From positions 1,612,001 to 1,676,000 of the forward strand of contig PHDC01000001.1 of NCBI GenBank assembly GCA_002842515.1: a DNA stretch of 64,000 bases, given 5' to 3'. This DNA is from Bacteroidetes bacterium HGW-Bacteroidetes-5 (GTDB lineage Bacteria > Bacteroidota > Bacteroidia > Bacteroidales > UBA932). Position 1 is the stretch's first letter, and the number at the start of each line of letters is the position of its first letter. The notes beneath the pieces are model-generated. The model worked only from the letters and a program-made list of their open reading frames with translations, ran no database searches and was not told the origin of the DNA. Positions 25,882 to 41,221 of this stretch are shown here, one piece after another. A program made the position numbers and the translations under genes.

Positions 25882-28497
25882 TTAAAGACCGAGTCTCTTT
25901 TTTAAATTTCTTAATTTGTCGAAGGCGTCCAGCGGAGAGAGAGAGTTGATGTCCATCTCCCGCAGTTCGTCCCGTATTGATATCAGAAGAGGGTCTTCCA
26001 ATTGGAAGAACGACAGCTGCATTGCATCTTCGTTATCTGAAACCCTCCGTTTTGTTCCACCTTTTTTCCCACTGCTCTCGAGCTGTTTAAGCACTCTCTC
26101 TGCTTTGGTTACAACATCCTTGGGCATTCCTGCCATTCTTGCAACGTGTATCCCAAAACTGTGAGCAACACCACCCCTGCACAATTTTCGCAGAAAGATA
26201 ACTCTTTTTTCTACCTCTTTCACAGATATGTGCCAGTTTTTTACACGGGCGAACTTATCCTCCAGATCATTAAGCTCGTGATAGTGTGTTGCGAAGAGGG
26301 TTTTTGCCCTATGTTCCGGGTGTTCGTGCAGGTACTCTACAATAGCCCAGGCTATTGACATTCCGTCATAGGTGCTGGTTCCGCGACCAATCTCATCCAG
26401 CAGCACTAGGGAGCGAGATGAGAGATTGTGTAGAATTGTGGCGGTCTCCAGCATCTCCACCATAAAAGTGGACTCCCCCTTTGTGATGTTGTCGGAGGCT
26501 CCCACCCGGGTGAAGATCTTGTCTATGATTCCGATGTTTGCCGCTTTAGCGGGAACAAACGACCCTATTTGGGCCATAAGTACAATAAGAGCAGTCTGGC
26601 GGAGCAGAGCGCTTTTACCGGCCATATTTGGGCCTGTTAAAATTATAATCTGCTGGTTTTCGTTGTCCAGAGTGAGGTCATTGGCAATATACTCCTCCCC
26701 TGCAGGCATAAGAGCCTCAATAACAGGGTGTCTCCCCTCGATTATCTCCAGAGTTGTGCCAAGGTTGAGCATTGGACGGCAATATTTTCTCTCCTGAGCC
26801 AAGTGTGCAAAGCCTGCAAGGCAGTCCAGCGTAGAGAGTTCAAATGCGTTTTTTTGAATTATGGGGATGTTTTTCTGGATTGCAGATACAATTTCGTTAA
26901 AGAGCAGCTGCTCCAGAATGAGCATCTTCTCCTCCGCTCCAAGAATCTTCTCTTCGTACTCCTTGAGCTCCTCTGTAATGTATCTCTCTGCACTAACCAG
27001 TGTCTGTTTGCGGATCCAGTCTGTAGGAACCTTATCTTTATGAGTGTTGCGCACCTCCAGATAGTACCCGAACACATTGTTGAAACTTATCTTTAACGAG
27101 CTGATTCCGGTTCTCTCGCTCTCCCGCCGCTGTATATCGTTTAGAATATCTTTGCCGTGGCGGGCGATATTGCGCAGAGTGTCCAGCTCTTCATTTACTC
27201 CTGTCGCAATAACATCTCCTTTGCCGATCATTCCGGCAGGATCTGCAAGCATCTCCCTGCCAAGTTTTTCCAACAGGGTGGCACAACAATCCAATTGCGC
27301 AGCAAGGGCGGTAAGCTCTACAGATCCGGAGTTTGTGCAGAGCTCTTTGATTGGGGCGACCTGTTCGAGCCCTCTTTTGAGCATAGTCACCTCGCGTGGG
27401 GAGATTCTGCCTGCTGCAGCTTTTGAGACAACCCTCTCCAGGTCGCCCACATCGTGCAGATATGCCCGAAGCTGCTCTTTGATGGAAACACTCTCATCTG
27501 CATTAAAGAGGTGCTCCACAATATTAAGGCGGATATTTAGCTCGTTTATATTCTTAAGCGGCATTGCCAGCCAGTTCCGCAGGGTTCTGGCCCCCATTGG
27601 GGTAGAGCACCTGTCTATGGTTTTGATGAGGGATGCTGCACCCTCCTGATATCCGCCAAAGACCTCCAGGTTGCGAAAGGTGAATTTATCTATCCACACA
27701 TACTCCCCTTCGTCTATACGGGAGATGGAGCAGAGATGCCCCAGCCCTTCGTGGCGGGTGAGCTCCAGGTAGAAGAGGATTGCTCCGGCGGCGGTTATTG
27801 CCAGGGGCATATTCTCTATTCCAAACCCTTTGAGAGATGGGATACCAAAATGGGTTTTAAGCTTCTCCAGGGCCGCCTCCGGGACAAATGCCCACTCATC
27901 CATTGTTGAGACAAAGTAGTCGTTCCCGAACTTCTCCTCAAAACCCTTTCGGTATGAGCGCTCTATAAGGACCTCCTTTGGAGACATACTTGCAAGCAGC
28001 AGCTCTATGTAGGCATAGGAGCCGGATGCCACGTGAAAAGAGCCGGTAGATATGTCCAGAAATGCTATCCCTGCCTGCTCTTTCTGGAAATAGAGCGAAC
28101 AGAGGTAGTTGTTCTCTTTGTTGGAGAGGAGCTGGTCGTTATATGCAACCCCGGGGGTAACCAACTCTGTTATTCCGCGCTTTACAATCTTCTTGGTCAG
28201 CTTGGGATCTTCCAGTTGGTCGCAGATTGCCACCTTATATCCTGCCCTTACCAATTTAGGCAGATAGCTGTCTATAGAGTGGTGGGGAAACCCGGCAAGC
28301 TCTACATATGAGGCTGCTCCGTTTGCCCTGCGGGTAAGTACAATTCCCAAAACTTTAGAGGCGATTATTGCATCCTGTGAAAATGTCTCATAAAAGTCCC
28401 CGACACGAAAGAGCAGGATGGCCTCCGGATGCTTCGCCTTAATGGCGAAGTACTGCCTCATAAGTGGTGTGTCGGCTATTTTATTATCTATGTTCAT
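25882..28497 (-). CDS. mutS: DNA mismatch repair protein MutS
   Basis: From the ATG at 28497 the protein has 871 residues. The mismatch-binding motif FRVGDFYETF is near 35, where the Phe stacks on the mispair. Connector, lever and clamp domains follow, then the ATPase with Walker A TGPNMAGKSA near 620, Walker B (LVLLDEIGRGTS) and the conserved FATHYHEL. The longer frame opens with a TTG at 28515 that lies next to the -7 element, so the ATG is preferred. mutL is not adjacent. Confidence 0.96.
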   Translation of the reverse strand: MNIDNKIADTPLMRQYFAIKAKHPEAILLFRVGDFYETFSQDAIIASKVLGIVLTRRANGAASYVELAGFPHHSIDSYLPKLVRAGYKVAICDQLEDPKLTKKIVKRGITELVTPGVAYNDQLLSNKENNYLCSLYFQKEQAGIAFLDISTGSFHVASGSYAYIELLLASMSPKEVLIERSYRKGFEEKFGNDYFVSTMDEWAFVPEAALEKLKTHFGIPSLKGFGIENMPLAITAAGAILFYLELTRHEGLGHLCSISRIDEGEYVWIDKFTFRNLEVFGGYQEGAASLIKTIDRCSTPMGARTLRNWLAMPLKNINELNIRLNIVEHLFNADESVSIKEQLRAYLHDVGDLERVVSKAAAGRISPREVTMLKRGLEQVAPIKELCTNSGSVELTALAAQLDCCATLLEKLGREMLADPAGMIGKGDVIATGVNEELDTLRNIARHGKDILNDIQRRESERTGISSLKISFNNVFGYYLEVRNTHKDKVPTDWIRKQTLVSAERYITEELKEYEEKILGAEEKMLILEQLLFNEIVSAIQKNIPIIQKNAFELSTLDCLAGFAHLAQERKYCRPMLNLGTTLEIIEGRHPVIEALMPAGEEYIANDLTLDNENQQIIILTGPNMAGKSALLRQTALIVLMAQIGSFVPAKAANIGIIDKIFTRVGASDNITKGESTFMVEMLETATILHNLSSRSLVLLDEIGRGTSTYDGMSIAWAIVEYLHEHPEHRAKTLFATHYHELNDLEDKFARVKNWHISVKEVEKRVIFLRKLCRGGVAHSFGIHVARMAGMPKDVVTKAERVLKQLESSGKKGGTKRRVSDNEDAMQLSFFQLEDPLLISIRDELREMDINSLSPLDAFDKLRNLKKRLGL

Positions 28498-28502
28498 CCC
28501 CA

Positions 28503-28510
28503 CAAAAATA
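28503..28510 (-). promoter_or_regulatory. -7 promoter element for mutS
   Basis: On the minus strand this reads TATTTTTG, matching TAnnTTTG, only 5 bp before the ATG at 28497, again suggesting a leaderless mRNA. Confidence 0.5.
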
Positions 28511-28525
28511 GTCAAATATGTTGGA

Positions 28526-28554
28526 TTGATTAATAATCTGTAATGCTATCTTTG
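28526..28554 (+). promoter_or_regulatory. -33/-7 promoter for the kinase-regulator pair
   Basis: A -33 TTG (28526-28528) and -7 TATCTTTG (28547-28554) are separated by 18 bp, close to the Bacteroidota spacing. The ATG is at 28570. This promoter lacks the direct repeats found before the three downstream operons. Confidence 0.6.
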
Positions 28555-28569
28555 TATTGAATTTTTACA

Positions 28570-29643
28570 ATGATAAAAGCACTTTATAACAAGCACCAAT
28601 ATTTTTTCAATATTTTTGCTGTTCTGGCATTGCTGGTAATTACCAGGTTGCTGGATGGGTTTGCCTGGTATCCTCCACATCCGGATAAAACAAAAACCTT
28701 ACTACTTGAACATCTATTTCAATTCATCTCCTTTTTCCCATTTATTTTCTTGATAATATACACTTACGGGTTGGCATTAAAAAAGAGATCAAAAACAGTT
28801 ATATATTCTCTTATAATATTTTATGCTGTTTTCGCCCCTCTCTTTGTACTTTGCTTTAGTACCTGGCTGGAGATAACTTTATTAAGAGCCAAAACACAAC
28901 CTGTTACACTTAAACTTATTGAACAGTTCACTCCGGGAGCAGGTATGGTTATCCTGTTTTTAAGTGCAACATACTTCCTTACATACCTTAAGATTCAATC
29001 TGCAAGTCAAAGAGAGGCGGCTCATAATGCAGAGTCATTGATCAAAGACGTACAAATTAAGATGTTTCGCTATCAGATAAACCCTCATTTTCTATTTAAT
29101 GTTTTAAACTCTATCTATACCTTAATAGATGAAAATACAGAGAAGGCGAAAAAACTTGTACTTGATATGTCGGATTATTACAGATATACCCTTACTAAAC
29201 AAAAAGAGTGTGTCTCTATCGAAAGCGAGATAGAGTCTATCGTTAAATATCTTGAAATTCAAAAAACAAGATTCGAAGAGAAGTTTCAATATGAGATATC
29301 TGTTGACGAAGCAGTAAGGCCGCTTTTAATACCCTCGTTTATTATTCACCTTCTCATAGAAAACGCAATAAAGTATGGCACAAAGACTACTAAACAAAAA
29401 TTATTGGTCAATCTTTCAGTTAAACTTGTCAAAAAGGACCTTTTTATAAGAGTCTCAAATACGGGTAAACTACTTGAATTACCCACCAATAATGAAAAGA
29501 ACACAGAGGGGACAAGTAATGGAATAGATAATTTAAAAAACAGACTGGCCCTATATTTTGGAGACAACTACTCATTTTCGCTTGAAGAGGTGGACGAATG
29601 GGTTTTTGCAACAATAGAGATCAATAACATCATCACCCAATGA
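28570..29643 (+). CDS. LytS/YehU-type sensor histidine kinase
   Basis: This 357-residue kinase has about four membrane helices in residues 10-140 with almost no periplasmic loop, so it probably senses a signal in or at the membrane. The His_kinase domain starts with FRYQINPHFLFNVLNSIY, with phosphoacceptor His173. FIIHLLIENAIKYG is the N box and NGIDNLKNRLALYFG the G box of the ATPase. Its stop overlaps the start of the LytTR regulator by 4 bp, so the two form one two-component system. Confidence 0.93.
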   Translation: MIKALYNKHQYFFNIFAVLALLVITRLLDGFAWYPPHPDKTKTLLLEHLFQFISFFPFIFLIIYTYGLALKKRSKTVIYSLIIFYAVFAPLFVLCFSTWLEITLLRAKTQPVTLKLIEQFTPGAGMVILFLSATYFLTYLKIQSASQREAAHNAESLIKDVQIKMFRYQINPHFLFNVLNSIYTLIDENTEKAKKLVLDMSDYYRYTLTKQKECVSIESEIESIVKYLEIQKTRFEEKFQYEISVDEAVRPLLIPSFIIHLLIENAIKYGTKTTKQKLLVNLSVKLVKKDLFIRVSNTGKLLELPTNNEKNTEGTSNGIDNLKNRLALYFGDNYSFSLEEVDEWVFATIEINNIITQ

Positions 29644-30371
29644 CACCTATAAAAGCTATCATCGTAGATGACGAAAGACTTGCCAGGGTTAGCCTCAGGA
29701 GGTTGCTGGAACCTTACCCGGAAATTGAGATAGTGGGAGAGGCAGATTCGTGTAAAAGCGCCATTGATTTGATTGATACCAATAAACCCAATTTGGTTTT
29801 TCTGGATATCCAGTTGAGCGGAGAGACCGGGTTTGATCTATTGGAATCAATTGACAAATCAATTAAAATATTTTTTGTTACAGCATTTGACGACTTTGCT
29901 ATTCGCGCCTTTGAGGTTAATGCCATCGATTACCTGCTAAAACCGGTTAGTCCACAGCGTCTAAAAGTCTCTCTGGATAGGTTGATAAACAGAGAAGATG
30001 TTCAGAAAAACGTAGCAAACAGTTATGAATATTCCGACAGTATCTATGTGCGGATAAGTAATTATGCTTCCAGATTCATAAAAATCGGCACGATAACACT
30101 TATTGAACCGGTGGGAAATTACTCCAAAATCTTTACCACCGACGGCAAAAATTGTTTGGTACTAAAAACATTAAAACAGTGGCAGGAAGAGCTGCCCGGT
30201 AATTATTTTGTAAGGATTCACCGCTCTTGCATTATAAATATTGAACACGTAGACCGCATAGAAATAGATTCAAAAACTCAACACCGGGTTTTTTTGAAAA
30301 ACATACCAAAACCGCTTGATGTTAGCCGTAGGTATGCGAAAAAACTAAAATCCACTCATCATATTATTTGA
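29640..30371 (+). CDS. LytTR-family response regulator
   Basis: The 243-residue regulator has a receiver domain with acidic pocket DDE near 10-12, phosphoacceptor Asp56 in VFLDIQLSG and Lys in YLLKPVS near 107. A LytTR DNA-binding domain follows (about 140-240: TLIEPVGNYSKIFT; FVRIHRSCIINIEHVDRIE). LytTR proteins bind pairs of about 9-bp direct repeats two helical turns apart. Just such a pair overlaps the 3' end of this gene, before the operon at 30429, and the same arrangement occurs before 35095 and 36708. Confidence 0.94.
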   Translation: MTPIKAIIVDDERLARVSLRRLLEPYPEIEIVGEADSCKSAIDLIDTNKPNLVFLDIQLSGETGFDLLESIDKSIKIFFVTAFDDFAIRAFEVNAIDYLLKPVSPQRLKVSLDRLINREDVQKNVANSYEYSDSIYVRISNYASRFIKIGTITLIEPVGNYSKIFTTDGKNCLVLKTLKQWQEELPGNYFVRIHRSCIINIEHVDRIEIDSKTQHRVFLKNIPKPLDVSRRYAKKLKSTHHII

Positions 30372-30420
30372 CCACTAGTCATATTTCTCATTGATTTTGA
30401 ATTTCTCACTATTTTCTTTG
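30351..30420 (+). promoter_or_regulatory. putative LytTR-regulated promoter 1
   Basis: Direct repeats TCCACTCATCATATTA (30351-30366) and ACCACTAGTCATATTT (30371-30386) start 20 bp apart. A -33 TTG lies at 30391-30393 and, 19 bp on, a weak -7 TTTCTTTG at 30413-30420, which has T where the consensus has A. The first repeat overlaps the stop region of the response-regulator gene. The operon starts at 30429. Confidence 0.7.
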
Positions 30421-30428
30421 AGAAAAAA

Positions 30429-30692
30429 ATGGAAATTAATTTAAAAAGTGTATTTACAACAGGATTGGTTGCCGGGTTAGTAATCAGTCTTAGTGCAATT
30501 AGTATGGTTCCCGTTGTCGGGAATGAAATGGATGTGGTTCTTGCAATTCGGGGACTTCCTCCATTAAGCAATCTGGCATATGGTTTTATGCCTGTTAAAC
30601 TAACCGTTATAGGAACCATCTGGGGCTTGGGAGAATTGTTACTGGCCGGTATTGTCGGGTCAAGATTGTATAAGGAGAAAAAAATAGCGTGA
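30429..30692 (+). CDS. small hydrophobic membrane protein
   Basis: This 87-residue protein has two predicted membrane helices (about 9-28 and 57-80) joined by a short loop with RGLPPLSN, and a basic C-terminus (RLYKEKKIA). No family is recognised. It is the first gene of an operon with a medium-chain reductase (7-bp gap) and a CPBP protease, directly behind the LytTR promoter, so it may be a membrane component of the regulated response. Confidence 0.6.
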   Translation: MEINLKSVFTTGLVAGLVISLSAISMVPVVGNEMDVVLAIRGLPPLSNLAYGFMPVKLTVIGTIWGLGELLLAGIVGSRLYKEKKIA

Positions 30693-30699
30693 GAAACAA

Positions 30700-31632
30700 A
30701 TGAAAGCAATTGTCTGTACTAAATACGGCCCTCCCGAGGTTCTTAAAATTAAAAATGTAGCAAAGCCCATTCCAAAGGATGATGAAGTACTCATTAAAAT
30801 TTATGCTACAGAAGTGACCAATAGTGATATCTTTGTCAGGAGTTCTCAGGTATCCATCAAATTTTGGATCCCTTTTCGGCTTATGGTGGGTTTGTTAAAA
30901 CCAAAAAAATCAATAATTGGATTGGTGCTTGCAGGAGAGATTGTGTCAGCAGGAAAAGAGATAACGCGATTTAAGGTAGGTGACCAGGTTTATGGACTTA
31001 CCGGTTTTGGTTTTGGGGCATATGCAGAGTATAAATGTATGAAGGAGACAGACTCGACCTATGGGTGCCTGGCTTTAAAACCAACAAATTTAACATCTGA
31101 AGAGGCTACAGTTGCAGCTTACGGAGGACTTCTGGCATTTCAGTTTATTGAAAAAGGGAATATTCAACCTAAGCAAAATGTGCTTATTTATGGAGCTTCG
31201 GGGACAACAGGGACAACTGCAATCCAATATGCCAAATACTTGGGAGCAAATGTTACTGGAGTATGCAGCACAGCAAACCTGGAGATGGTAAAAACTCTCG
31301 GTGCCGATACTGTAATTGATTACACTAAAGAAGAGAATTTAGCCCCGGGAGTCAAATTTGATTTCATACTTGATGCTGTTGGTAAAAGAAAAACTTCAAA
31401 ACTGAAAAGTGCTTGTAAAAAAGCTCTAGCACCCGGAGGAAAATATGCATCAATCGATGATAGCGCTCTGTTGTTAGACTCTAAGCGTCTTGAGTTAATA
31501 AAAGTGTTGGCAGAAGCCGGACATATAAAGCCGATTGTTGACAGATGCTATCAGTTTGAAGAGATTGTTGAGGCTCACAGATATGTTGGTCTCGGACACA
31601 AAAGGGGTGGTGTAGTAATTAAAATATTATAA
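30700..31632 (+). CDS. NAD(P)-dependent medium-chain reductase, paralogue 1
   Basis: The 310-residue protein belongs to the zinc-independent quinone-oxidoreductase side of the MDR superfamily. A GroES-like N-terminal half (KAIVCTKYGPPEVLKI ... VGDQVYGLTGFGFGAYAEY) is followed by a Rossmann domain (GASGTTGTTAIQYAKYLGA; GADTVIDYTKEE). No structural or catalytic zinc cysteines are seen. It probably reduces quinones or enones with NAD(P)H. Two paralogues lie at 35572 and 39966. This copy is the shortest. Confidence 0.88.
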   Translation: MKAIVCTKYGPPEVLKIKNVAKPIPKDDEVLIKIYATEVTNSDIFVRSSQVSIKFWIPFRLMVGLLKPKKSIIGLVLAGEIVSAGKEITRFKVGDQVYGLTGFGFGAYAEYKCMKETDSTYGCLALKPTNLTSEEATVAAYGGLLAFQFIEKGNIQPKQNVLIYGASGTTGTTAIQYAKYLGANVTGVCSTANLEMVKTLGADTVIDYTKEENLAPGVKFDFILDAVGKRKTSKLKSACKKALAPGGKYASIDDSALLLDSKRLELIKVLAEAGHIKPIVDRCYQFEEIVEAHRYVGLGHKRGGVVIKIL

Positions 31633-31643
31633 GGGAGATTTTT

Positions 31644-32450
31644 ATGGAAAGTAATGCTCGGTTTCCTTACCGTTTTTTCGTCATAACATTTATATGGTCG
31701 TGGATAATCTGGACTCCTCTCATCCTTGGCAACTTCGGAATCATCCCTGTCTCAGATAAATTAATGTCAATCTTGAAAATGCCAGTATTAATGCTCGGAG
31801 TTTTCGGGCCACTTGCTGGTGCACTTTTTACTTTATACAAAGAAAAAGGCAAAGGTTCTTCAAGAAAATACCTACGAAGGTTTTTTGATTTCAATTTAGG
31901 TTGGAGAACTTATGTTTTTCCCATAATAATATTTGGTGGCAGTACATTTATTGCTTGGTTTTCCCCGGAACTGTTTGGCGAAAAAAGATTGTCAATGTTA
32001 CTGCCCTCAATATGGGTCTTTATTCCTTGTTTATTATTCATGATTATTTTAGGTGGAGGTCAGGAGGAGTTTGGCTGGCGAGGATATGCTCTTCCGATTC
32101 TTGAAAGTAAATTTGGACTATGGTTTGCAAACATTATTTTAGGGATTATCTGGGCTTTCTGGCATTTACCTTTATGGTTCATAGCAGGGACAAGTCAGAC
32201 ATATATGAATTTCGGAGGTTTTATACTCCTGATGGTTGGATACTCCTTCATTTTATCGTGGCTCCTAAAAATCTCAGGCAACAGACCGTTTTCTGGACTT
32301 TATGTTCACGGGCTATTTAATGCCTTAATCTCTCTTATGCCAACCTTTATTATGCAAAAAAATGTACCACAAACCCGTTTTTGGATATGGGCAATTCTGA
32401 CATTATTAATTGGTATTTCGATTACCATATTGCGTAAAAGAAATCGATAA
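31644..32450 (+). CDS. CPBP-family intramembrane metalloprotease
   Basis: This 268-residue membrane protein has about eight helices. The CPBP (Abi/CAAX protease-like) motifs are GGGQEEFGWRGYALP near 136-150 (EExxxR), FWHLPLWF near 172-179 (HxxxW) and a later GLYVHGLFNA that supplies a metal-ligand His. Members cleave within membranes and some process peptides or provide immunity to them. It lies 11 bp after the reductase and closes this operon. Confidence 0.88.
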   Translation: MESNARFPYRFFVITFIWSWIIWTPLILGNFGIIPVSDKLMSILKMPVLMLGVFGPLAGALFTLYKEKGKGSSRKYLRRFFDFNLGWRTYVFPIIIFGGSTFIAWFSPELFGEKRLSMLLPSIWVFIPCLLFMIILGGGQEEFGWRGYALPILESKFGLWFANIILGIIWAFWHLPLWFIAGTSQTYMNFGGFILLMVGYSFILSWLLKISGNRPFSGLYVHGLFNALISLMPTFIMQKNVPQTRFWIWAILTLLIGISITILRKRNR

Positions 32451-32483
32451 AACATTCTATAAGTCATAATTAAAGAACAAATT

Positions 32484-32646
32484 ATGATAGTTACTAAAAA
32501 GAGTAATTAGGTTATAATAACATTAGTTGTTTTAATCACTGCCAAAAATGGTTTATTTGCACAACAAAAAAAAGTTATTATCTAAAAGTTTTAAGGACGA
32601 TATTGAAAAAGTTGAAGCTGCATATTTGGAAAGTATCTCACATTAG
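32484..32646 (+). pseudogene. decayed N-terminal gene fragment
   Basis: An ATG at 32484 begins MIVTKKSN, then an in-frame TAG, then VIITLVVLITAKNGLFAQQK, which has the look of a signal peptide with its cleavage site. A shift of frame near 32580 gives KSFKDDIEKVEAAYLESISH before a stop at 32644. Taken together this resembles the start of an exported protein inactivated by a stop, a frameshift and truncation. No family can be named, and a chance resemblance is possible. Confidence 0.35.
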
Positions 32647-33759
32647 CAATTCGGAAGTCTTAAAGATTGAATTCAAACCTTCAGGTATCTTCTTTTTAAA
32701 CGGCCAGTCCAGGTAATTCAGATCGTGATTGTGTCCCTCAAAAAAGAAACATTTTAGATTTGACTTATTGGCTTGCCTGAATCTGGATTGAATATCGTAT
32801 ACTCCTTCGACAGGAGCATTACCATCTTCAATTCCATGAAATATAAAAGTCGGAATATCAATTCTTAACAATCTTGTTTTATTGGCTTCAAGCTTAAAAT
32901 GCTCCTTAAGCCACCTGCTGCTTACTCTGAAATAATTTTTCCATATCCAGGCATCACTGTCTGAATCAATCATTTTTAATAAGTATTCAAAATATGGAGC
33001 AGCCCTAGAACCAAAGTCACGGTAATCAAGAACACTGTCTTTTACTATGTCGAGCGATTCAAACGAAGCATTCCCCAGCACTCTGGTTCTGCCCAGTACG
33101 GCAATTGAGTCAGATGATTCATACTCATTTTTACTAATCATATTGTCCTTGTTCAAATCAAAGTATTTTCGAAGGTTAATAATAGACGCTTTTCCTGAGT
33201 ATTGCCATTTTATTATATCAAACAAGTTGTCGTTAGCATACCCAAATAGCAGTAGTGCATCAATTTTTTCAACTTTCCTGTCTGCAACTATTGACGCAAT
33301 TATTGTTCCCTCACTACAACCCAGCAAAGCTATTTTAGCGTTTACGAATCGCTTGTCATTCCTTAAAGTTGAAATTATTGCTTCAATATCCTCTGCTTCC
33401 GTTATGGGAAGATATTTAGAGTATTTTACGGAATCAATTTTATCATAATAAGGAGGAGTATCTCCAATTTCTACCCCTCTTCTGTTATAGGAAAAAAATC
33501 CAATTCCTCTTTTGTTAAATTCGTCGGCAAACAGATCAAAATAGCTAAATTCGGTATTTCCAATTTTTCTTTTATTAAGATAGGTATTCGGGCCTGTACC
33601 ATGCACGAAAACAACCAGTAATGGGACTTTATTCCCCTGAGGAAGTTTCAGTTGTCCTGCTATGCTTTCCCCATCGGACAACCGTACTTTCACAATTTCT
33701 TCTCCAAACGCGCAGATACTTAAGTTAATAACAATCAATAATATTAAAATATTTTTCAT
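32638..33759 (-). CDS. secreted alpha/beta hydrolase with an EF-hand pair
   Basis: The 373-residue protein has a signal peptide (1-19). It has an alpha/beta-hydrolase core with oxyanion loop VHGTGPNTY near 53, nucleophile Ser149 in GCSEG, an acidic residue in GIEDGNAP and catalytic His in GHNHDLNYLDW. Residues 201-212 (DLNKDNMISKNE) form a perfect 12-residue EF-hand calcium loop. Residues 227-238 form a second, poorer loop with Val at position 3 and Asp at 12. The pair sits in the cap region. It is the last gene of a minus-strand operon behind an ECF sigma factor and a membrane protein. Confidence 0.8.
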   Translation of the reverse strand: MKNILILLIVINLSICAFGEEIVKVRLSDGESIAGQLKLPQGNKVPLLVVFVHGTGPNTYLNKRKIGNTEFSYFDLFADEFNKRGIGFFSYNRRGVEIGDTPPYYDKIDSVKYSKYLPITEAEDIEAIISTLRNDKRFVNAKIALLGCSEGTIIASIVADRKVEKIDALLLFGYANDNLFDIIKWQYSGKASIINLRKYFDLNKDNMISKNEYESSDSIAVLGRTRVLGNASFESLDIVKDSVLDYRDFGSRAAPYFEYLLKMIDSDSDAWIWKNYFRVSSRWLKEHFKLEANKTRLLRIDIPTFIFHGIEDGNAPVEGVYDIQSRFRQANKSNLKCFFFEGHNHDLNYLDWPFKKKIPEGLNSIFKTSELLM

Positions 33760-34382
33760 ATAGATTCGCTATTAAAAGTTAGTTGAGTGTGCAACTCTCT
33801 CAAAAACTCAAGATTTTTTATCTGATACTTACGGATTTTATTAATTGCATAGTATGAAACGAATAAGCCTACCAGGAACCCTACAATCAGACCAATTATT
33901 GATTCTTCACTCTTCATTACTTCAACAAACGGTTTATATTCATAATAAACGTGGATTGATATATTTATCATCACTAAAAGGATTGGAATTATTACAATAT
34001 ATAATTTGCTGTATTTACCCAATAACCATTTTGACAACAAATTGATTCTTTGTTCCAACCAATCCTTTAATGACAAGTTGCATTGATTACGATTCAATTT
34101 ATTCAATGAAAATAGAGAAATAATTAAAGCTGAGAATGTTATAAGAATGAGTATAGAATTATTAATCAGATAGAAAATGTCATCTTGCCTGTTAAGAGCT
34201 GTCACGATCAAAAAGACAATCAAACCAAAACTCACAATAATATCTATACTAAGAATAAAGAAAAATTTATTAATTGTTTTCCTGATTTTGTTATCTAATA
34301 ATTGATTCAGTTGCCCGGTTGTTTTTAGATCAATTTCGGAATCAATATTTTTCCATATTTTTTGCAATTCATTATTTTCCAT
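33756..34382 (-). CDS. membrane protein, putative anti-sigma factor
   Basis: The protein has 208 residues: an N-terminal cytoplasmic part (about 1-38, ELQKIWKNIDSEID) and four membrane helices (about 40-65, 70-95, 125-145 and 160-180). It overlaps the ECF sigma gene by 11 bp and the hydrolase gene by 4 bp. The position right behind an ECF sigma factor and the short cytoplasmic head before membrane helices suggest it holds the sigma factor at the membrane. No zinc-binding anti-sigma motif (HxxxCxxC) is present, so this role rests on context. Confidence 0.55.
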   Translation of the reverse strand: MENNELQKIWKNIDSEIDLKTTGQLNQLLDNKIRKTINKFFFILSIDIIVSFGLIVFLIVTALNRQDDIFYLINNSILILITFSALIISLFSLNKLNRNQCNLSLKDWLEQRINLLSKWLLGKYSKLYIVIIPILLVMINISIHVYYEYKPFVEVMKSEESIIGLIVGFLVGLFVSYYAINKIRKYQIKNLEFLRELHTQLTFNSESI

Positions 34383-34875
34383 AGTTGAGGGGATTTAAAT
34401 TTTGTTTCAGGAGTTCTTTAGCTCTATTAATTCGTACACCTACATTGGATTTGGATATACCAATTATTTGGGCAATTTCATCATAACTCTTCTCTTCAAG
34501 GTATAAAAGCATTATCGGTTTGTCAATTTCATTAAGATTGTAAATCGCTCCCAATAGCATCTTACTTACTTCACTTAAGGATAGTTCTTCAATTATATCA
34601 ATCTTGTCAAAAGATTCGGGGAGATTTTCTCGGTACTCAATTCGTGACTCTTTCTTCAATTTCGAAATTGAAGTATTAATAGATACAGCATAGATCCACG
34701 AGCCTATACTACTCTTATTCTTTAAACCCGGGAATGATTTCCAAAGTTGATAAATGATCTCTTGAAAATTATCCTCTCTGTCAGAAGCATTTTTGAAGTA
34801 GATAAGGTTTACCTTATGCAGTATGCCTTGATAATTTGATAATATTTCCAGAAAATCGTCCTTAATTGACTTCAT
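34372..34875 (-). CDS. ECF-family RNA polymerase sigma factor
   Basis: This 167-residue protein consists of the two ECF sigma regions. Region 2 includes REDNFQEIIYQLWKSFPGLK and IGSWIYAVSINTSISKLK (about 32-77). Region 4 has the helix-turn-helix YLEEKSYDEIAQIIGISKSNVGVRINRAKELLKQ (about 126-159). It heads an operon with the membrane protein and the EF-hand hydrolase, the likely output of its regulation. Confidence 0.92.
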   Translation of the reverse strand: MKSIKDDFLEILSNYQGILHKVNLIYFKNASDREDNFQEIIYQLWKSFPGLKNKSSIGSWIYAVSINTSISKLKKESRIEYRENLPESFDKIDIIEELSLSEVSKMLLGAIYNLNEIDKPIMLLYLEEKSYDEIAQIIGISKSNVGVRINRAKELLKQNLNPLNYGK

Positions 34876-34898
34876 ATTAAAATTCTTTACTTATAAAG

Positions 34899-34923
34899 TA
34901 TCACGGAATGAAGATTTATTACA
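34899..34923 (-). promoter_or_regulatory. possible autoregulated ECF promoter
   Basis: On the minus strand TGTAATAA (34923-34916) and CCGTGATA (34906-34899) have the form of ECF -35 (GTAA) and -10 (CGT) elements at about the usual spacing, 24 bp upstream of the sigma gene. No good TAnnTTTG element is present, which fits self-activation. Confidence 0.35.
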
Positions 34924-34994
34924 AAATAACTGAAAAAATATTTTGAAATGTATACAAACGAATTGGATCTGTAAAAATGGTTTCTAAAAATAGC

Positions 34995-35064
34995 ACCAGT
35001 TATCATATTATTTGACCGCTAGTCATATTTTTCATTGAGTTTATCTGCAGGGATATTTCCTTTG
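34995..35064 (+). promoter_or_regulatory. putative LytTR-regulated promoter 2
   Basis: Direct repeats ACCAGTTATCATATTA (34995-35010) and ACCGCTAGTCATATTT (35015-35030) start 20 bp apart. A -33 TTG lies at 35035-35037 and a weak -7 TTCCTTTG at 35057-35064. All spacings equal those of promoter 1. The lipoprotein gene starts at 35095. Confidence 0.7.
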
Positions 35065-35094
35065 GGCAATTAAAAAATAAAAGCGAAATAATTT

Positions 35095-35559
35095 ATGACA
35101 TCTAAAACAAAATTTTTAAGACAAATCTTAATAACAGTAGCTGTAATAGCCTTTTTTTCAAGCTGCAGCACAATTAATCGCAGTATGAGAGAGCCCGATA
35201 CAAGGGTTAATCTAAGAATGAGCGATTTCTCACTATCAAACCAAGTAACAGCAACAGTAACATCAGTAAAGGTTTTTGGCATCGACTGGGCCAGACTTTT
35301 TAAGAAAAAAACAGGGGTGGTTGATGGTAGTAGCTCTTCCACAATCAATCTGGTATGTATTCCTGTAATTGGAAATATAGTATCAGACAGGACTGCAAAT
35401 TATTCTCTCTATGAGTTGATGAGTGATAGTCCCGGGTACGATGTGGTCTTTTACCCTCAATATGAAACAAAAATTTTAAGACCGGTACTAGGCATCGGCT
35501 TCTTTTCTAAGATTACGACAGTTAAGACAACAGCCAGACTTGGGAAAATGAATAATTAA
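35095..35559 (+). CDS. hypothetical lipoprotein
   Basis: The protein has 154 residues with a lipoprotein signal and lipobox AFFSSC near 19-24. The mature part has a conserved-looking segment (NLRMSDFSLSNQVTATVTSVKVFGIDWARLF) and ends in beta-rich sequence with a tyrosine- and proline-rich stretch (YDVVFYPQYETK). Similar short lipoproteins are common in Bacteroidota but have no assigned function. It is followed 12 bp later by reductase paralogue 2. Confidence 0.65.
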   Translation: MTSKTKFLRQILITVAVIAFFSSCSTINRSMREPDTRVNLRMSDFSLSNQVTATVTSVKVFGIDWARLFKKKTGVVDGSSSSTINLVCIPVIGNIVSDRTANYSLYELMSDSPGYDVVFYPQYETKILRPVLGIGFFSKITTVKTTARLGKMNN

Positions 35560-35571
35560 AAGGGGGATCAT

Positions 35572-36585
35572 ATGAAAGCAATTGTTTTTACAGAATATGG
35601 TGCACCAGAGGTCCTGAAACTCAAAGAGGTTCCAAAACCAAAGCCAAAGGATAATGAAATCCTTATAAAGGTCTACGCAACGCCATTAAATTTTGGAGAT
35701 ACACTTGTACGAAAATTCAACTCCATTACCCCTAAAAAATTCCATATGCCGTTCATATTCTGGTTTTTAGGAAAGCTCTATTTTGGTTTCAAAAAACCTA
35801 AAATAGAGATATTAGGGAGTGAATTTTCCGGGAAAGTTGAATCTATCGGTAAAAATGTAAAGAGGTTTATAGCAGGAGATCAGGTCTTCGGATATCGTGG
35901 CCCACGTATGGGTGCTTATGCAGAGTACCTGTGTATGAACGAAAATGACGTTGTTGCTCATAAACCAACCAATATGTCATATGAACAGGCAGCCGCTATA
36001 CCATATGGTGCAATTATGGCGTTAGGTTCTATCAGAAAAGCAAATCTGAAAGCTAAACAGAGCGTTTTAGTCAACGGAGCTTCCGGCGGCATAGGTCCTA
36101 TTGTGGTGCAACTTGCAAAAAAACATTTTGATGCAATTGTAACCGGAGTTTGCGGGACACCTAGAATACCGTATGTTATCTCTATGGGTGCAGATAAGGT
36201 AATCGATTACACTAAAGAGGATTTTAGTAAAAACGGAGAGACCTATGACTATATTTTTGATATTCTTGGGAAATGTTCAATTGAAATGTGCAAACGCTCA
36301 CTTAAGAAAAACGGGAGCTGCCTTTATGTAAGTTTTAAGATGAAGCAGGTTTTTCAAATGTTATGGAGATCAATAGCCGGAAATAAGAAAATAGTCTGTG
36401 TAATGGTTAATGAAAACACAAAAGATTTGATTTTCATTAAAGAGCTTATAGAGGCGGGTAAGATTAAATCAATAGTAGACAGATGCTATAGATTAGAGGA
36501 GGCTGCCGAAGCACACAGATATTTTGAAAGCGGGAACAAGCAAGGCAGTGTTGTATTAACGTTATATGATGAGCATAATATTTAA
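35572..36585 (+). CDS. NAD(P)-dependent medium-chain reductase, paralogue 2
   Basis: The 337-residue MDR enzyme has a GroES-like half (KAIVFTEYGAPEVLKLKEV; AGDQVFGYRGPRMGAYAEYLCM) and a Rossmann half (VNGASGGIGPIVVQLAKKHFDA; GADKVIDYTKEDF). It lacks zinc-binding cysteines and matches its paralogues at 30700 and 39966 throughout, including the closing KSIVDRCYRLEEAAEAHRYFESG. It probably reduces carbonyl or quinone compounds with NAD(P)H. It closes the second LytTR-promoter operon. Confidence 0.9.
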   Translation: MKAIVFTEYGAPEVLKLKEVPKPKPKDNEILIKVYATPLNFGDTLVRKFNSITPKKFHMPFIFWFLGKLYFGFKKPKIEILGSEFSGKVESIGKNVKRFIAGDQVFGYRGPRMGAYAEYLCMNENDVVAHKPTNMSYEQAAAIPYGAIMALGSIRKANLKAKQSVLVNGASGGIGPIVVQLAKKHFDAIVTGVCGTPRIPYVISMGADKVIDYTKEDFSKNGETYDYIFDILGKCSIEMCKRSLKKNGSCLYVSFKMKQVFQMLWRSIAGNKKIVCVMVNENTKDLIFIKELIEAGKIKSIVDRCYRLEEAAEAHRYFESGNKQGSVVLTLYDEHNI

Positions 36586-36613
36586 TAGCACTATTTTACA
36601 ATAAAGGAAGCTA

Positions 36614-36683
36614 ACCACTTATCACATTATGTGACCACTAATCACAATTATAGTTTATTTTATTGACTCTGGTACTTTCTTTG
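36614..36683 (+). promoter_or_regulatory. putative LytTR-regulated promoter 3
   Basis: Direct repeats ACCACTTATCACATTA (36614-36629) and ACCACTAATCACAATT (36634-36649) start 20 bp apart. A weak -7 TTTCTTTG lies at 36676-36683, at the same distance as in promoters 1 and 2; the -33 position reads TTT instead of TTG. The four-gene operon starts at 36708. Confidence 0.7.
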
Positions 36684-36707: not shown

Positions 36708-37550
36708 ATGAAACAAGTAAAACTAACACCCAAAAAGGCATTTATGAAATGCGGAACCTGCAGCAGTGCTATGTTCCATTTGCTTAATCAGGAGTTTGAC
36801 AACCTGAGTGAGACAGAGGAAAAAGCGTGTGACCTTTTAGCAGGAGGGGTAGCACAAAAGGGGCATCAGTGCGGGATGCTTTGGGGTGCCTCTCTGGCTG
36901 TTGGAGTAGAATCACTCAAAAGACACAGTGACAAAAACCATGCAATTGCATCTTCAATAACAGCGTCACAATACATAGTAGAATCTTTTGAAAAGAGAAC
37001 CAAAACAGTTAATTGCAGGGATATTTCAGGAATTGATTGGGAAAACAAACTGGATTTTGCCCTCTATATGGCAAAAACTATTCTGCAGGGATTTGTATAC
37101 AGTCCTTGTTTCAAACTTATTGACAAGTGGACTCCGGAAGCCATTCAGGCAGCTAACAAAGGGTTTGCAGGTAAAAAGATATACAGCAAAAATTGTATAA
37201 GCTGTGCATCCGAGGTTGTAAAAAAAATGGGGGCAAGTGAGCAAGAGAGTATTATAGTTTCGGGTTTTGCAGGAGGAATTGGCCTGAGCGGAAATGGTTG
37301 CGGGGCTTTAAGTGCAGCAATATGGTATAAAATGTTAGACTGGGAGAAAAAGAATACCGGGAAAAACCCTGCCTTTTTTAATAATCAGGATGTAAAGAGT
37401 TTATTAAGGTCATTTTATATCCAGACTGACTCCGAAATGTTGTGCAGGAAGATTTGCGGGAAACAATTTGAATCAATTGACGAACACTCGGATTATATTC
37501 GAAGCGGTGGTTGTAAAAACATAATTGAAGCACTGGCAAATTCACGATGA
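36708..37550 (+). CDS. tandem C-GCAxxG-C-C redox-type protein
   Basis: This 280-residue protein looks like a duplication of the C_GCAxxG_C_C family, whose members are usually about half as long and are thought to bind a metal or act in redox chemistry. The first unit has Cys15 and Cys18, Cys55 in QCGMLWGAS, Cys103 and Cys134. The second has Cys163 and Cys166, Cys198 in GCGALSAA, then Cys246, Cys250 and Cys269. There is no export signal. It overlaps the cysteine desulfurase gene by 4 bp (ATGA), so the two are translationally coupled. A role in handling sulfur or a metal-sulfur cofactor is inferred. Confidence 0.75.
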   Translation: MKQVKLTPKKAFMKCGTCSSAMFHLLNQEFDNLSETEEKACDLLAGGVAQKGHQCGMLWGASLAVGVESLKRHSDKNHAIASSITASQYIVESFEKRTKTVNCRDISGIDWENKLDFALYMAKTILQGFVYSPCFKLIDKWTPEAIQAANKGFAGKKIYSKNCISCASEVVKKMGASEQESIIVSGFAGGIGLSGNGCGALSAAIWYKMLDWEKKNTGKNPAFFNNQDVKSLLRSFYIQTDSEMLCRKICGKQFESIDEHSDYIRSGGCKNIIEALANSR

Positions 37551-38698
37551 AAAGATTTCTTTATAAGCGGCAGGTCTATCTTGACAATAATGCCACAACA
37601 TACGTTAGCAAACGTGTGCAGAGAATTATGATGCGGGTATTAAAATATTATTGGGGCAATCCATCATCGGGTTATCACATTGGTAAAATGTCGGCACAAA
37701 TTATTGAGAAGGCCCGCGGGCAAGTTGCAGATGCCGTTCGTGCCCATTCACACGAGATATATTTTACAGGATGTGCCACTGAATCTAACAACGCTGTCTT
37801 AAAAACATTAACTAATCACTTCTATCCTCAAAAGAAGAAAATCATCTCTACTCCCGTTGAACACCCTTCTATAATGAACACATTAGAATATCTACAAACT
37901 CAAGGAGTTGTGGTTCAATATTGTCCTGTAGACAGATATGGGTTTATTTCCATTAAAGAGTTAGAGACTCTTATAGATGAAGAGACCTTTTTAATATGCT
38001 GTATGTTTGCAAATAATGAGATTGGAACTATTCAAAATATCAAAGAAGTATCTGCACTCGCAAAATCTCAGAATGTTCTTGTATTATGTGATTGTGTTCA
38101 GGCATTAGGAAAGGTGCCGGTTGATGTGAAGGATTTGGGGGTAGATTATGCAACATTCTCTGCTCATAAGCTCTATGGACCAAAGGGAGTTGGAGCATTA
38201 TATGCAAAGATAAGCAGCCCCCTTGAGCCATTCATCCACGGCGGACATCAGGAAGAGGGAATGCGTGCGGGCACAGAATCGGTTCATAATATTGCAGGTT
38301 TTGGCGTGGCTTGTAAGGATGTTAAAAACCTTATAGCCTATTCCGAAAAAACAAGACTACTAAAAGAACAATTTATAAAACGACTGAAAGTCATCAAACC
38401 CGATATAATAATCAACTCTCCAACAGACAATTGTTTGCCAAATACAGTCAGTATTACTTTCCCGAATATCAACAGCAAAGAACTTATGATGATGTTAGAT
38501 TATAACGGCATTGCCGTATCATCCGGTTCTGCGTGCAGCAGTCAATTAAACAAACCGTCCCACGTTTTAAAAGCTATTGGATTATCCGATAAAGAAGCAA
38601 CAGAAACTCTTCGAATCAGTTTCGGTAAAGAGACATCGGAAAGAGATATCAGATATACTATAAAAGTGATAGATAATTACTTGAAAAACAGCAGATGA
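37547..38698 (+). CDS. cysteine desulfurase (IscS/NifS-like)
   Basis: The 383-residue PLP enzyme takes sulfur from cysteine and holds it as a persulfide. It starts with the family signature YLDNNATT (11-18). His106 in VEHPS stacks on PLP, Lys208 in FSAHKLYGPKG binds it, and Cys330 in SSGSACSSQ on the mobile loop is the persulfide carrier. No IscU, SufU or other scaffold gene is near. Instead it sits between the tandem C-GCAxxG-C-C gene and a TPR gene with 4-bp overlaps on both sides, suggesting a dedicated sulfur donor rather than the housekeeping enzyme. Confidence 0.93.
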   Translation: MKRFLYKRQVYLDNNATTYVSKRVQRIMMRVLKYYWGNPSSGYHIGKMSAQIIEKARGQVADAVRAHSHEIYFTGCATESNNAVLKTLTNHFYPQKKKIISTPVEHPSIMNTLEYLQTQGVVVQYCPVDRYGFISIKELETLIDEETFLICCMFANNEIGTIQNIKEVSALAKSQNVLVLCDCVQALGKVPVDVKDLGVDYATFSAHKLYGPKGVGALYAKISSPLEPFIHGGHQEEGMRAGTESVHNIAGFGVACKDVKNLIAYSEKTRLLKEQFIKRLKVIKPDIIINSPTDNCLPNTVSITFPNINSKELMMMLDYNGIAVSSGSACSSQLNKPSHVLKAIGLSDKEATETLRISFGKETSERDIRYTIKVIDNYLKNSR

Positions 38699-39969
38699 AA
38701 CAGCCGATAGTAATATTGCTTTTTGTCCTTTTGACATTACAAGCTTACGGACAAAACCCGACATTAAAAGAACAGGCTCTGGATAAGTTCAAAAAAGAAC
38801 ATTACTCAGAAGCAATTCTCTTATTGGAACAAGCGGCAAAAGAGACCCCGAAGGATGCGGAAATTTTTTACTATTTGGGATGGTTCAACCATTACAGGGC
38901 ATACGATAGTCGACCATTGAGCGGATACAGCTTTTCATATTCCGAACAAATTTTCAAATATTTGGACAAAGCCCTTGAACTCAAGCCCGATTATGGCGAT
39001 GCAAAGTACTTTTACGGTGCGGAATGTAGCGGAAACGCCTTTATTGCAATGCAGAATAATGATGCGGAGAAGTTAAGGTATTTCTATAAATTGGCCAATG
39101 ACAAAGGTGCATATCCGGCCTGGCTAAAAGAGTTCGGGCGAAATTTCCTGAAAAGTTGCGATGCTAACGCAATTTTATTTACAGGCGGAAATGCCGACTT
39201 TGATGTTTGTCTTTATTTACAATTACACGAAAACGTGAGAACAGATATTACCCTCGTGCCCATTGGAAACATTGACCGGCCCTGGTATGTGAAATTCATT
39301 AAAACCGGATTAGATGGTACAATTAAAAAAGTTGATCTAAACCTCACAGACCAGCAGATAATGGATATACACCCTTTTAAGTGGGACACTACAATGGTTT
39401 CAATCAAATTATCCTCAGAGGACAAAAAGCAATTTGGGTTATCAGATAACTATCTGTTTCAATGGCAGGTTGAACCTGACCTGTTTTCTGAAAGGATGCA
39501 CTCAAAAATTGAAAGCGAAAAAGCAAAAAAGCGCGCATACCTAAGCCCACAAAGGGCCATACTTTTACAGATAGTTGAGGATAATTTTTCTCACAGACCA
39601 ATTTATTTCTCAAACTTTTGCTCCCCAACACTTTTTGGGGGACTGAATTCATTTTTTCAAAACTGTGGGCTGGTTTCACGCCTAACGCCTGTTTTGACAA
39701 AGGACACCGAATTTGCATTCAATTATTCAAAAATGGATGAATTACTTCAAGAACAGAATGTTGTAAATTTTAAAACATTAATAAATAGCAGTATGCCTCG
39801 CATTTCCGGCGTTATTGTATCTGGTTATTACAACACTTTGCTTAATTTATCTGAAAAATTCGACAAGACTAATGACCTAAAAGGTAAAAATTACCTGAAA
39901 CTGCTATTTGAAAAGCACTTAAAGATAGGATATGACACAGAATTTGAGAATGAAATCCAAAAAAAATGA
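38695..39969 (+). CDS. secreted TPR protein with a DUF2723-like C-terminal domain
   Basis: This 424-residue protein has a signal peptide (cleavage near YGQ, 21) and TPR-like helices at about 25-120 (DKFKKEHYSEAILLLEQAAKE; KYLDKALELKPDYGDAKYFY). The rest contains AILFTGGNADFDVCLYLQ, TLVPIGNIDRPWYV and RPIYFSNFCSP ... CGLVSRLTPV. These resemble the soluble tail of large DUF2723 membrane proteins of Bacteroidota, but the membrane part is missing. It would lie in the periplasm while its operon neighbours are cytoplasmic. Overlaps of 4 bp at both ends couple it to them. Confidence 0.65.
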   Translation: MKQPIVILLFVLLTLQAYGQNPTLKEQALDKFKKEHYSEAILLLEQAAKETPKDAEIFYYLGWFNHYRAYDSRPLSGYSFSYSEQIFKYLDKALELKPDYGDAKYFYGAECSGNAFIAMQNNDAEKLRYFYKLANDKGAYPAWLKEFGRNFLKSCDANAILFTGGNADFDVCLYLQLHENVRTDITLVPIGNIDRPWYVKFIKTGLDGTIKKVDLNLTDQQIMDIHPFKWDTTMVSIKLSSEDKKQFGLSDNYLFQWQVEPDLFSERMHSKIESEKAKKRAYLSPQRAILLQIVEDNFSHRPIYFSNFCSPTLFGGLNSFFQNCGLVSRLTPVLTKDTEFAFNYSKMDELLQEQNVVNFKTLINSSMPRISGVIVSGYYNTLLNLSEKFDKTNDLKGKNYLKLLFEKHLKIGYDTEFENEIQKK

Positions 39970-40961
39970 AAGCAATTGTACACACAAAATATGGACCTCC
40001 TGACGAACTACAGCTTAAAGAGGTACAAAAACCAGTTCCCAAGGAGAATGAAGTGTTGATAAAAATACACGCGACAACAGTAACAACTACGGACTGCAAC
40101 GCTCGTAACTTCACATTTGTCCCTAAATCATTTATGTTTTTCGCACGACTAGTGTTTGGTTTCAAAAAACCCAAAATAAATATTCTAGGAATTGATTTGG
40201 CAGGAGAAATTGAAGCTGTAGGCAAAGATGTAAAGCTATTTAAGAAGGGTGACCAGGTTTTTGGATCACCCGGAACCAAATTCGGTGCCCACGCAGAGTA
40301 TGTTTGTGTTCCCGAAGATGGTGCACTGGCTATAAAACCGGCTAGTATGTCCTGGGAGGAGGCTGCCGCTATTTCATTAGCGGGAAATACTGCACTGTTT
40401 TTTATTAGAGATTTGGCAAAAATTCAAACCGGACAAAAAATACTTATCCACGGCGCTTCCGGGGCAATCGGAACCTATGCCGTTCAACTTGCTAAATACT
40501 ATGGTGCAGAAGTTACAGGAGTCTGTAGTGCCACTAATGTAGAAATGGTTAAATCTTTAGGCGCCGATAAGGTAATTGATTATACCAAAGAGGATTTTAC
40601 CAAAACCGATGAGAGATATGATTTTGTTTTTGATGTGGTAGGCAAGACTACATTCTTACAATGCAAGGGCATATTAAAACAAAAGGGAATTTATCTTGAA
40701 AACAACCTTGAACTAAAGGATATTCTAATAATGATGTGGAGATCATTAGTTGGAGGTAAAAAAATTAAGGGAGGGGTATCAATTGAGCGTGCAGAAAACC
40801 TGAATTTCTTTATTGAACTTATAGAATCCGGAAAGTTAAAACCGGTTATTGATAGAACATTTCCACTCGAAAAGAGCGCAGAAGCTTTTCGATATGTCGA
40901 GTTAGGACATAAAAAGGGGAATGTAATCATTATAAACCAGTCATTTAATTGTAACTTTTAA
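39966..40961 (+). CDS. NAD(P)-dependent medium-chain reductase, paralogue 3
   Basis: The 331-residue MDR enzyme has the same plan as the copies at 30700 and 35572: KAIVHTKYGPPDELQLKEV at the start, KGDQVFGSPGTKFGAHAEYV, the Rossmann motif HGASGAIGTYAVQLAKYYGA and GADKVIDYTKEDF. It is the last gene of the third operon with a LytTR-type promoter and overlaps the TPR gene by 4 bp. Each of the three operons thus holds one such reductase. Confidence 0.9.
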   Translation: MKAIVHTKYGPPDELQLKEVQKPVPKENEVLIKIHATTVTTTDCNARNFTFVPKSFMFFARLVFGFKKPKINILGIDLAGEIEAVGKDVKLFKKGDQVFGSPGTKFGAHAEYVCVPEDGALAIKPASMSWEEAAAISLAGNTALFFIRDLAKIQTGQKILIHGASGAIGTYAVQLAKYYGAEVTGVCSATNVEMVKSLGADKVIDYTKEDFTKTDERYDFVFDVVGKTTFLQCKGILKQKGIYLENNLELKDILIMMWRSLVGGKKIKGGVSIERAENLNFFIELIESGKLKPVIDRTFPLEKSAEAFRYVELGHKKGNVIIINQSFNCNF

Positions 40962-40976
40962 AAACAAATAATGAGG

Positions 40977-41213
40977 ATGAAAAAGATTACAGTATTATTA
41001 TTTTTGGTGTTTTTCAACATCTCTCTCTTCGGCAAAGAATTTGTTAAAATCGCAACACCTACTAATGCGGATAAAAAAATGTCGGAGAATACTGCTAATG
41101 ATAAGTTAGCCGATCTATATGCAATGACAGAGAAATACAAATTGGCTGTTGAAAAATTTAATTCTTCTATGTCAAAAATACGCGAATCAAAATACAAGCG
41201 CCCGGTTAGCTAA
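40977..41213 (+). CDS. small secreted protein
   Basis: From the ATG at 40977 (an ATG six bases earlier is also possible) this is a 78-residue protein with a signal peptide (KKITVLLFLVFFNISLFG) and a short charged helix-forming mature part (KLADLYAMTEKYKLAVEKFNSSM). No family is recognised. It follows reductase 3 by 15 bp and precedes a lipoprotein hydrolase by 8 bp, so it may belong to the same transcript. Confidence 0.55.
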   Translation: MKKITVLLFLVFFNISLFGKEFVKIATPTNADKKMSENTANDKLADLYAMTEKYKLAVEKFNSSMSKIRESKYKRPVS

Positions 41214-41221
41214 AGTCTAAT

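Follow-up and report, generated by a model that had tools for sequence, protein, structure and literature searches.

Paired LytTR-type sites before three neighbouring operons point to a local regulon of a two-component system in a Bacteroidales genome

In the genome of Bacteroidetes bacterium HGW-Bacteroidetes-5, the gene of a LytTR response regulator is followed by three promoters that carry direct repeats of the same spacing. This raises the question of whether the regulator, called 29640 here after its first base, activates the three operons behind these promoters. The window, that is the whole stretch of 64,000 nucleotides that we analysed, corresponds to C1:1612001-1676000 of a genome of 2.8 Mb in 5 contigs (G000), and all coordinates are given within it. 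The regulator gene (29640-30371, + strand) encodes 243 amino acids (aa), with a receiver domain (Response_reg, PF00072, Pfam 1.9e-21) followed by a LytTR domain (PF04397, 2.1e-22), both above the cut-off. Adjacent to it lies the gene of a 357-aa sensor histidine kinase (28570-29643, + strand), in which PF06580 (Pfam 1.7e-26) is the only domain detected by Pfam. We consider it very probable, from comparison of sequences, that 29640 activates the three neighbouring operons through the shared paired sites. The initial annotation had proposed the same role for the 28570/29640 system, and the proposal gains comparative support from the linkage of sites and regulator across genomes.

Each promoter is preceded by two direct repeats on the + strand, at 30351-30366 and 30371-30386 (site 1), 34995-35010 and 35015-35030 (site 2), and 36614-36629 and 36634-36649 (site 3). 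The geometry described in the initial annotation was reproduced. The repeat starts lie exactly 20 bp apart in all three pairs (30351/30371, 34995/35015 and 36614/36634), and the distance from the TCA of the second repeat to the G that closes the -7 element is 41 bp each time (T at 30379, 35023 and 36642; G at 30420, 35064 and 36683). Site 1 (30351-30386) overlaps the end of the regulator gene, as had been noted. The repeats had been described as two 16-bp copies per promoter; the two copies stood, the length did not, and the conserved core covers about 11 bp (ACCRCTNRTCA) and is followed by an AT-rich tail.

In a scan of the window, at least 10/15 matches in both copies were found at three places on the + strand; a fourth, weaker one overlaps site 2 on the - strand. 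At a threshold of at least 11/15, the three sites alone were left. A pair pattern built from the sites gave 3 matches in the window, while a looser one, with up to 3 mismatches, gave exactly the three sites in the whole genome. A site model made from 15 aligned sites found 3 genome matches at E <=0.1, all at this locus. The genome-wide search that had been proposed as a check therefore shows that the pair is not frequent, since the three known sites are the only matches of both pattern and model. A chance origin of the pairs was rejected on the basis of 0 matches in 100 window shuffles, no further match in the genome and 0 matches in the reversed control.

The exact spacing could also come from common descent and not from a bound regulator, if the three promoters were recent duplicates copied together with their oxidoreductase operons. 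The likeness over 47 bp amounts to 89% between sites 1 and 2, and site 3 is 79% alike; moreover, three paralogous oxidoreductases are spread over the three operons. However, the ungapped likeness ends after 47 bp, the operons begin with genes that have no Pfam family in common, and the same elements with the same spacing recur in other families before other genes. We judge this origin to be extremely unlikely.

The primary promoter consensus of Bacteroidota is TTG, about 19 bp and TAnnTTTG. Promoter 1 (30391-30420, + strand) has TTG at 30391-30393, 19 bp and TTTCTTTG at 30413-30420, and promoter 2 (35035-35064, + strand) has TTG at 35035-35037, 19 bp and TTCCTTTG at 35057-35064. Compared with the consensus, both read TTG-19-TTnCTTTG. 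Promoter 3 (36654-36683, + strand) has TTT instead of TTG at the -33 place (36654-36656), then 19 bp and TTTCTTTG at 36676-36683. The -7 elements TTnCTTTG, in which T replaces A, were thereby confirmed in all three promoters. Up to 120 bp upstream of 56 mechanically called open reading frames of the window there were 27 matches to TNnnTTTG, with A as the second letter in 14 and T in 6. In the aligned sites, 15/15 have T at the second position of the -7 octamer, but some of the held-out sites have A, so the off-consensus -7 element is limited to part of the group. A sigma-70 scan, which does not cover this promoter type, found no more than in shuffles.

The distance to the -7 element was also followed in sites of other genomes of the order. 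Eight such sites were found by their half-sites alone, outside the model, three of which (L182, and L183 twice) are also model matches. They carry TTTG at 41 bp in 6 cases, ATTG in 1 and TTTA in 1, compared with TTTG at 8/640 places elsewhere; TTTG stands at 14, the -33 place, in 4. In the loci of the wider phylum the -7 place is looser, with TTTG at 41 in 1/15, other TTTA- or ATTG-like steps at 39-41 in several and nothing at that place in some.

Since the repeat pair stops 8-9 bp upstream of the -33 element and overlaps neither this nor the -7 element, its position bears on an alternative in which the bound regulator acts as a repressor, or only affects the shape of the DNA, without activating. 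Both promoter elements are left free, the -7 elements are off consensus in their second letter, and HdrR of Streptococcus mutans activates from repeats 8 bp upstream of the -35 element, as stated in the excerpt of PMC6193735. We find such a role very unlikely. For activation by 29640 we propose the following course. Kinase 28570 would phosphorylate 29640, which would then bind both ACCRCTNRTCA repeats as a pair, the two lying 20 bp from each other on about the same face of the DNA. From there the bound pair would recruit the Bacteroidota-type RNA polymerase to the three promoters with their off-consensus -7 elements, and the three neighbouring operons would be switched on together. We infer phosphorylation, binding and activation, as well as the identity of the binder as 29640 among the LytTR proteins of this genome.

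This reading is supported by the linkage of sites and regulator across the order. We used samples of 393 genomes of the order and 395 genomes of the phylum, each drawn from a larger group. In the order, the six best regulators, with at least 250 bits, are those of G000, G264, G343, G163, G266 and G393. The site model was searched there with stricter filters and 12 candidates scored per genome, and it gave matches of at least 27.8 bits in 5/393 genomes, namely G000 (3), G163 (1), G393 (3), G264 (3) and G343 (2), the next match having 22.4 bits. Strong sites are hence present in 5/6 genomes with the best regulators and in 0/387 others (Fisher P 7.9e-11, a value that includes the window's own genome as one of the five and a model fed by four of them). 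G000, G163, G393 and G264 supplied model sites, so their matches are not independent; the match of G343 is. In total, 111/393 genomes had some model match at E <=0.1, and apart from those of the five strong genomes we took these as noise.

A second search used a fixed-distance pattern, extending to TTTG, that was built from the sites of the window's genome and of one genus relative (G017) only. It matched 5/393 genomes (G000, G163, G264, G393 and G125) and had 0 matches in the control. With the own genome omitted, 3/4 matching genomes are among the 5 with regulators of at least 250 bits (P 4.0e-6). In G266, the one of the six best-regulator genomes without strong sites, a pair too weak for the model lies directly behind the best regulator, with period 20 and TTTG at 41. 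The conservation expected by the initial annotation is thus borne out, in that the sites are kept together with the kinase/regulator pair. G393 even repeats the layout of the window, with kinase, regulator, site, genes and then two more sites, each before genes; the oxidoreductases, hydrolases and sigma-factor operon of the window have homologues in its locus. In G343, the kinase gene is preceded by a second pair.

The sites might belong to another LytTR protein, with their place beside 29640 being incidental. The genome encodes eight LytTR proteins, 29640 and seven others, LytTR half-sites are alike across families, and G017 retains a site without a close regulator. On the other hand, strong sites track the 29640-type regulator across the order, and one site lies at or directly behind its gene in G000, G264, G343, G163 and G393. 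In addition, the 3.3-kb loci around the seven other LytTR genes of G000 (L002-L008) contain no model match up to E = 1. Assignment to another LytTR protein is therefore unlikely in our view.

Activation by 29640 also fits what is seen among close relatives. Among 25 genomes of the genus, the full set of sites is present in three (the own genome, G016 and G008), where the regulator is 99-100% identical, and the C_GCAxxG gene behind site 3 is present in the same 3/25 genomes as the regulator. G008 and G016 keep site 1, although the first genes behind it are those of a 284-aa protein and an S41 peptidase, which are absent there in the window. In the locus of G008 (L050, G008:C130, 10569-12134), the regulator gene and site 1 are separated by an insertion of about 1.5 kb. 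It carries an AAA_14/DUF4143 ATPase gene (10677-11891, - strand), its flanks are a 22-bp duplication of site 1, and the regulator frame and one full site survive.

Half-site pairs were counted further at a criterion of at least 16/18 matches and at periods from 12 to 32. In 32 loci of the order, 11/16 pairs have period 20 (9 loci), a count that includes sites used for the model. Across the phylum, the regulator was found at E <=1e-55 in 16/395 genomes, the own one included, and in the 18 other loci of these genomes (L217-L234) we counted 17 half-site pairs, of which 16 have period 20 and one has 21. Period-20 pairs occur in 10/18 of these loci, several of which are near-copies from one genus, directly behind the regulator and/or before the kinase. 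In 80 loci from a scan of all species, 12/50 pairs have period 20, compared with 2 in a Markov control; the sites of G016 account for three of the 12.

A tree of the 100 best different regulators out of 169 places the period-20 pair on 24/100 rows with 8 changes, compared with 21.7 in shuffles (0/500 as low). The clade of the window comprises 10 rows (3 near-copies), 9 of which have the pair. The remaining row, L075 (53%), is under the pair threshold and has a weak pair with TAGTTTTG at 41, which was picked by eye and not counted. Because many forks of this quickly built tree are open and near-copies are included, it shows only that the pair label clusters. Searches of single families found the regulator at E <=1e-55 in 2/12, 2/9 and 1/6 genomes, which suggests patchy inheritance.

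We also considered whether the arrangement is a general property of LytTR genes and rejected this, because among 111 relatives of 120-230 bits 1 locus falls into the cell of period 20 with TTTG at 41, and 65/391 cells are fuller. Among the 10 relatives with at least 230 bits, 4 loci fall into this cell. Neighbouring distances at period 20 also reach 4, so this comparison supports the period and not the distance. In a repeat search up to 200 bp behind 16 regulator genes, period 20 was best in 5, and two of these beat shuffles (L182 with 0/50 and L195 with 1/50 as good); the sites of G343, G266 and G393 were not outstanding in this search, which makes no use of the half-site. Different half-sites in L194 and L196 were dropped, as they are not significant alone (44/50 and 5/50 shuffles as good). 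A count of any repeated 14-mers in the 80 distant loci had no peak at 20 (6, compared with 23 at 21).

Three arrangements stood out in other loci. In L215 (G163:C120), three half-sites in a row follow a paralogous regulator (53%), with periods 21 and 20 and TTTG at 41 from the last. Sites in other families precede genes of PD40 or He_PIG domain proteins (L068, L211, L212 and L071), and some of the proteins behind the sites of L068, L211 and L212 also carry a Por_Secre_tail (type IX secretion) domain. Outside Bacteroidota, L096 from a Verrucomicrobia metagenome-assembled genome (MAG) has period-20 half-site pairs upstream and directly downstream of a LytTR gene with 44% identity.

Several observations weigh against activation by 29640. 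In G017, a single site of the same period and with the same 41 bp stands upstream of a short-chain dehydrogenase (SDR) gene, and the best regulator match of this genome is only 36% identical; either loss of the regulator or an assembly gap may lie behind this, as the contig ends about 4.6 kb from the site. G125 is matched by the fixed-distance pattern, scores 22.4 bits with the site model and has a regulator only 37% alike; we are unsure of its status. No period-20 pair lies within the regulator's reach in 23/32 order loci, including two of the seven with at least 50% identity (L187 and L188), nor is there one in 8/18 phylum loci or in the 27 loci L012-L038, and few of the 80 more distant loci carry such pairs. 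The pair counts cover neither the locus G393:C94 (49% identity) nor the second copies of G232 and G132. Because the 89% likeness of sites 1 and 2 over 47 bp coincides with paralogous oxidoreductases in both operons, part of it may stem from duplication. Finally, the stretch 28441-28575 shows TATCTTTG before the kinase gene, and the pair scan of the window found no repeat pair before the kinase operon, so the locus gives no sign of the usual autoregulation.

All three operons lie on the + strand, with extents inferred from gene spacing. Operon 1 (30429-32450) encodes an 87-aa protein (30429) that looks hydrophobic by eye, a zinc-type ADH/PIG3-like oxidoreductase (30700) and an Rce1-like membrane protease (31644). 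The 87-aa protein (30429-30692) is 141 aa long in G008 and G016, and by eye the window copy is without an internal in-frame stretch. Operon 2 (35095-36585) encodes a 154-aa protein (35095), lipoprotein-like by eye, and a second zinc-type ADH/PIG3-like oxidoreductase (35572). The genes of operon 3 (36708-42151) overlap or are at most 10 bp apart, and they encode a C_GCAxxG_C_C protein, a class-V aminotransferase (NifS-like), a 424-aa protein whose TPR matches are all below the cut-off, a PIG3-like oxidoreductase, an 80-aa protein and an alpha/beta hydrolase. Between operons 1 and 2, a run of genes on the reverse strand (32638-34875) encodes a sigma-70 family factor, a 208-aa protein and an alpha/beta hydrolase, and homologues of this run are present inside the G393 locus.

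With quinone-reductase-like oxidoreductases, hydrolases and a C_GCAxxG protein as putative targets, the regulon may serve a redox or electrophile response. If 29640 acts as proposed, the locus would represent a small regulon, apparently complete and testable, of a two-component system in this Bacteroidota lineage, and the site model would tie a group of LytTR regulators to their targets. A broader reading, which we hold to be possible but rather doubtful, is that a portable switch, made up of kinase, regulator and the promoter that directly follows the regulator gene, passes from one Bacteroidota family to another. Operons that land behind it or gain a copy of the promoter would join the regulon, and its signature would be the 20-bp period, combined within the order with a fixed distance of 41 bp from the -7 element.

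Compared with known systems, the three window pairs look like LytTR sites, being direct repeats of about 9 bp, about two helical turns apart (period 20 in 3/3) and upstream of promoters. Among the open-licence papers listed, judged by title and start of the abstract, we found no mapped two-component LytTR regulon of Bacteroidota. In the excerpt of PMC6193735, the LytTR Regulatory Systems (LRS; HdrRM and BrsRM of S. mutans and LRS-like operons of Bacteroides) have pairs just upstream of the promoter, and the 8-9 bp between the window pair and the -33 element correspond to the position where LytTR activators such as HdrR bind. In the LRS-like operons of Bacteroides, the repeats TCCGGTATTCA/ACCGGAAATCA are separated by 11 bp and stand 11 bp from the promoter, with a TATCTTTG element downstream of them; a gap of 11 bp, or period 20 for 9-bp repeats, is a published minority spacing. 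These systems differ in having no kinase or receiver and instead a membrane inhibitor or a membrane-spanning regulator, whereas the window encodes a PF06580 kinase and a receiver domain. YpdA/YpdB of Escherichia coli resembles the window system in that a LytTR response regulator acts on a tandem site pair, GGCATTTCAT in PyhjX (PMC4847170, excerpt), but the half-site differs.

The closest likeness by family model is to BtsS/BtsR (YehU/YehT) of E. coli, also a kinase with a LytTR regulator and a fitting half-site. BtsR (NF008677) is the best NCBIfam match of 29640; since its 159 bits are below the curated cut-off of 246, we filed the window system as a LytTR two-component system with a local regulon and not as BtsR. 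The targets differ as well: published abstracts describe BtsS as a pyruvate sensor and BtsR as the driver of a gene for a pyruvate transporter, whereas the putative targets here are oxidoreductases and hydrolases. The agreement of the repeat starts with published LytTR sites, suggested by the initial annotation, holds for the half-sites of both BtsR, ACCGCTTA and ACCACTCA in PyjiY (oligonucleotide, PMC4847170, table 1), and BrsR, ACCACTTAT-12 bp-ACCGCTTAT (PMC6193735), as far as these excerpts go. The BtsR half-site ACCRCTYA is alike, but its period of 21 is found in none of the three window sites, and pairs in the clade of the window have period 20, except for one extra copy at 21 in G163. 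A shared half-site thus goes with a period of 20 in the window and of 21 for BtsR and BrsR, a natural comparison for the question of how spacing is set by LytTR dimers.

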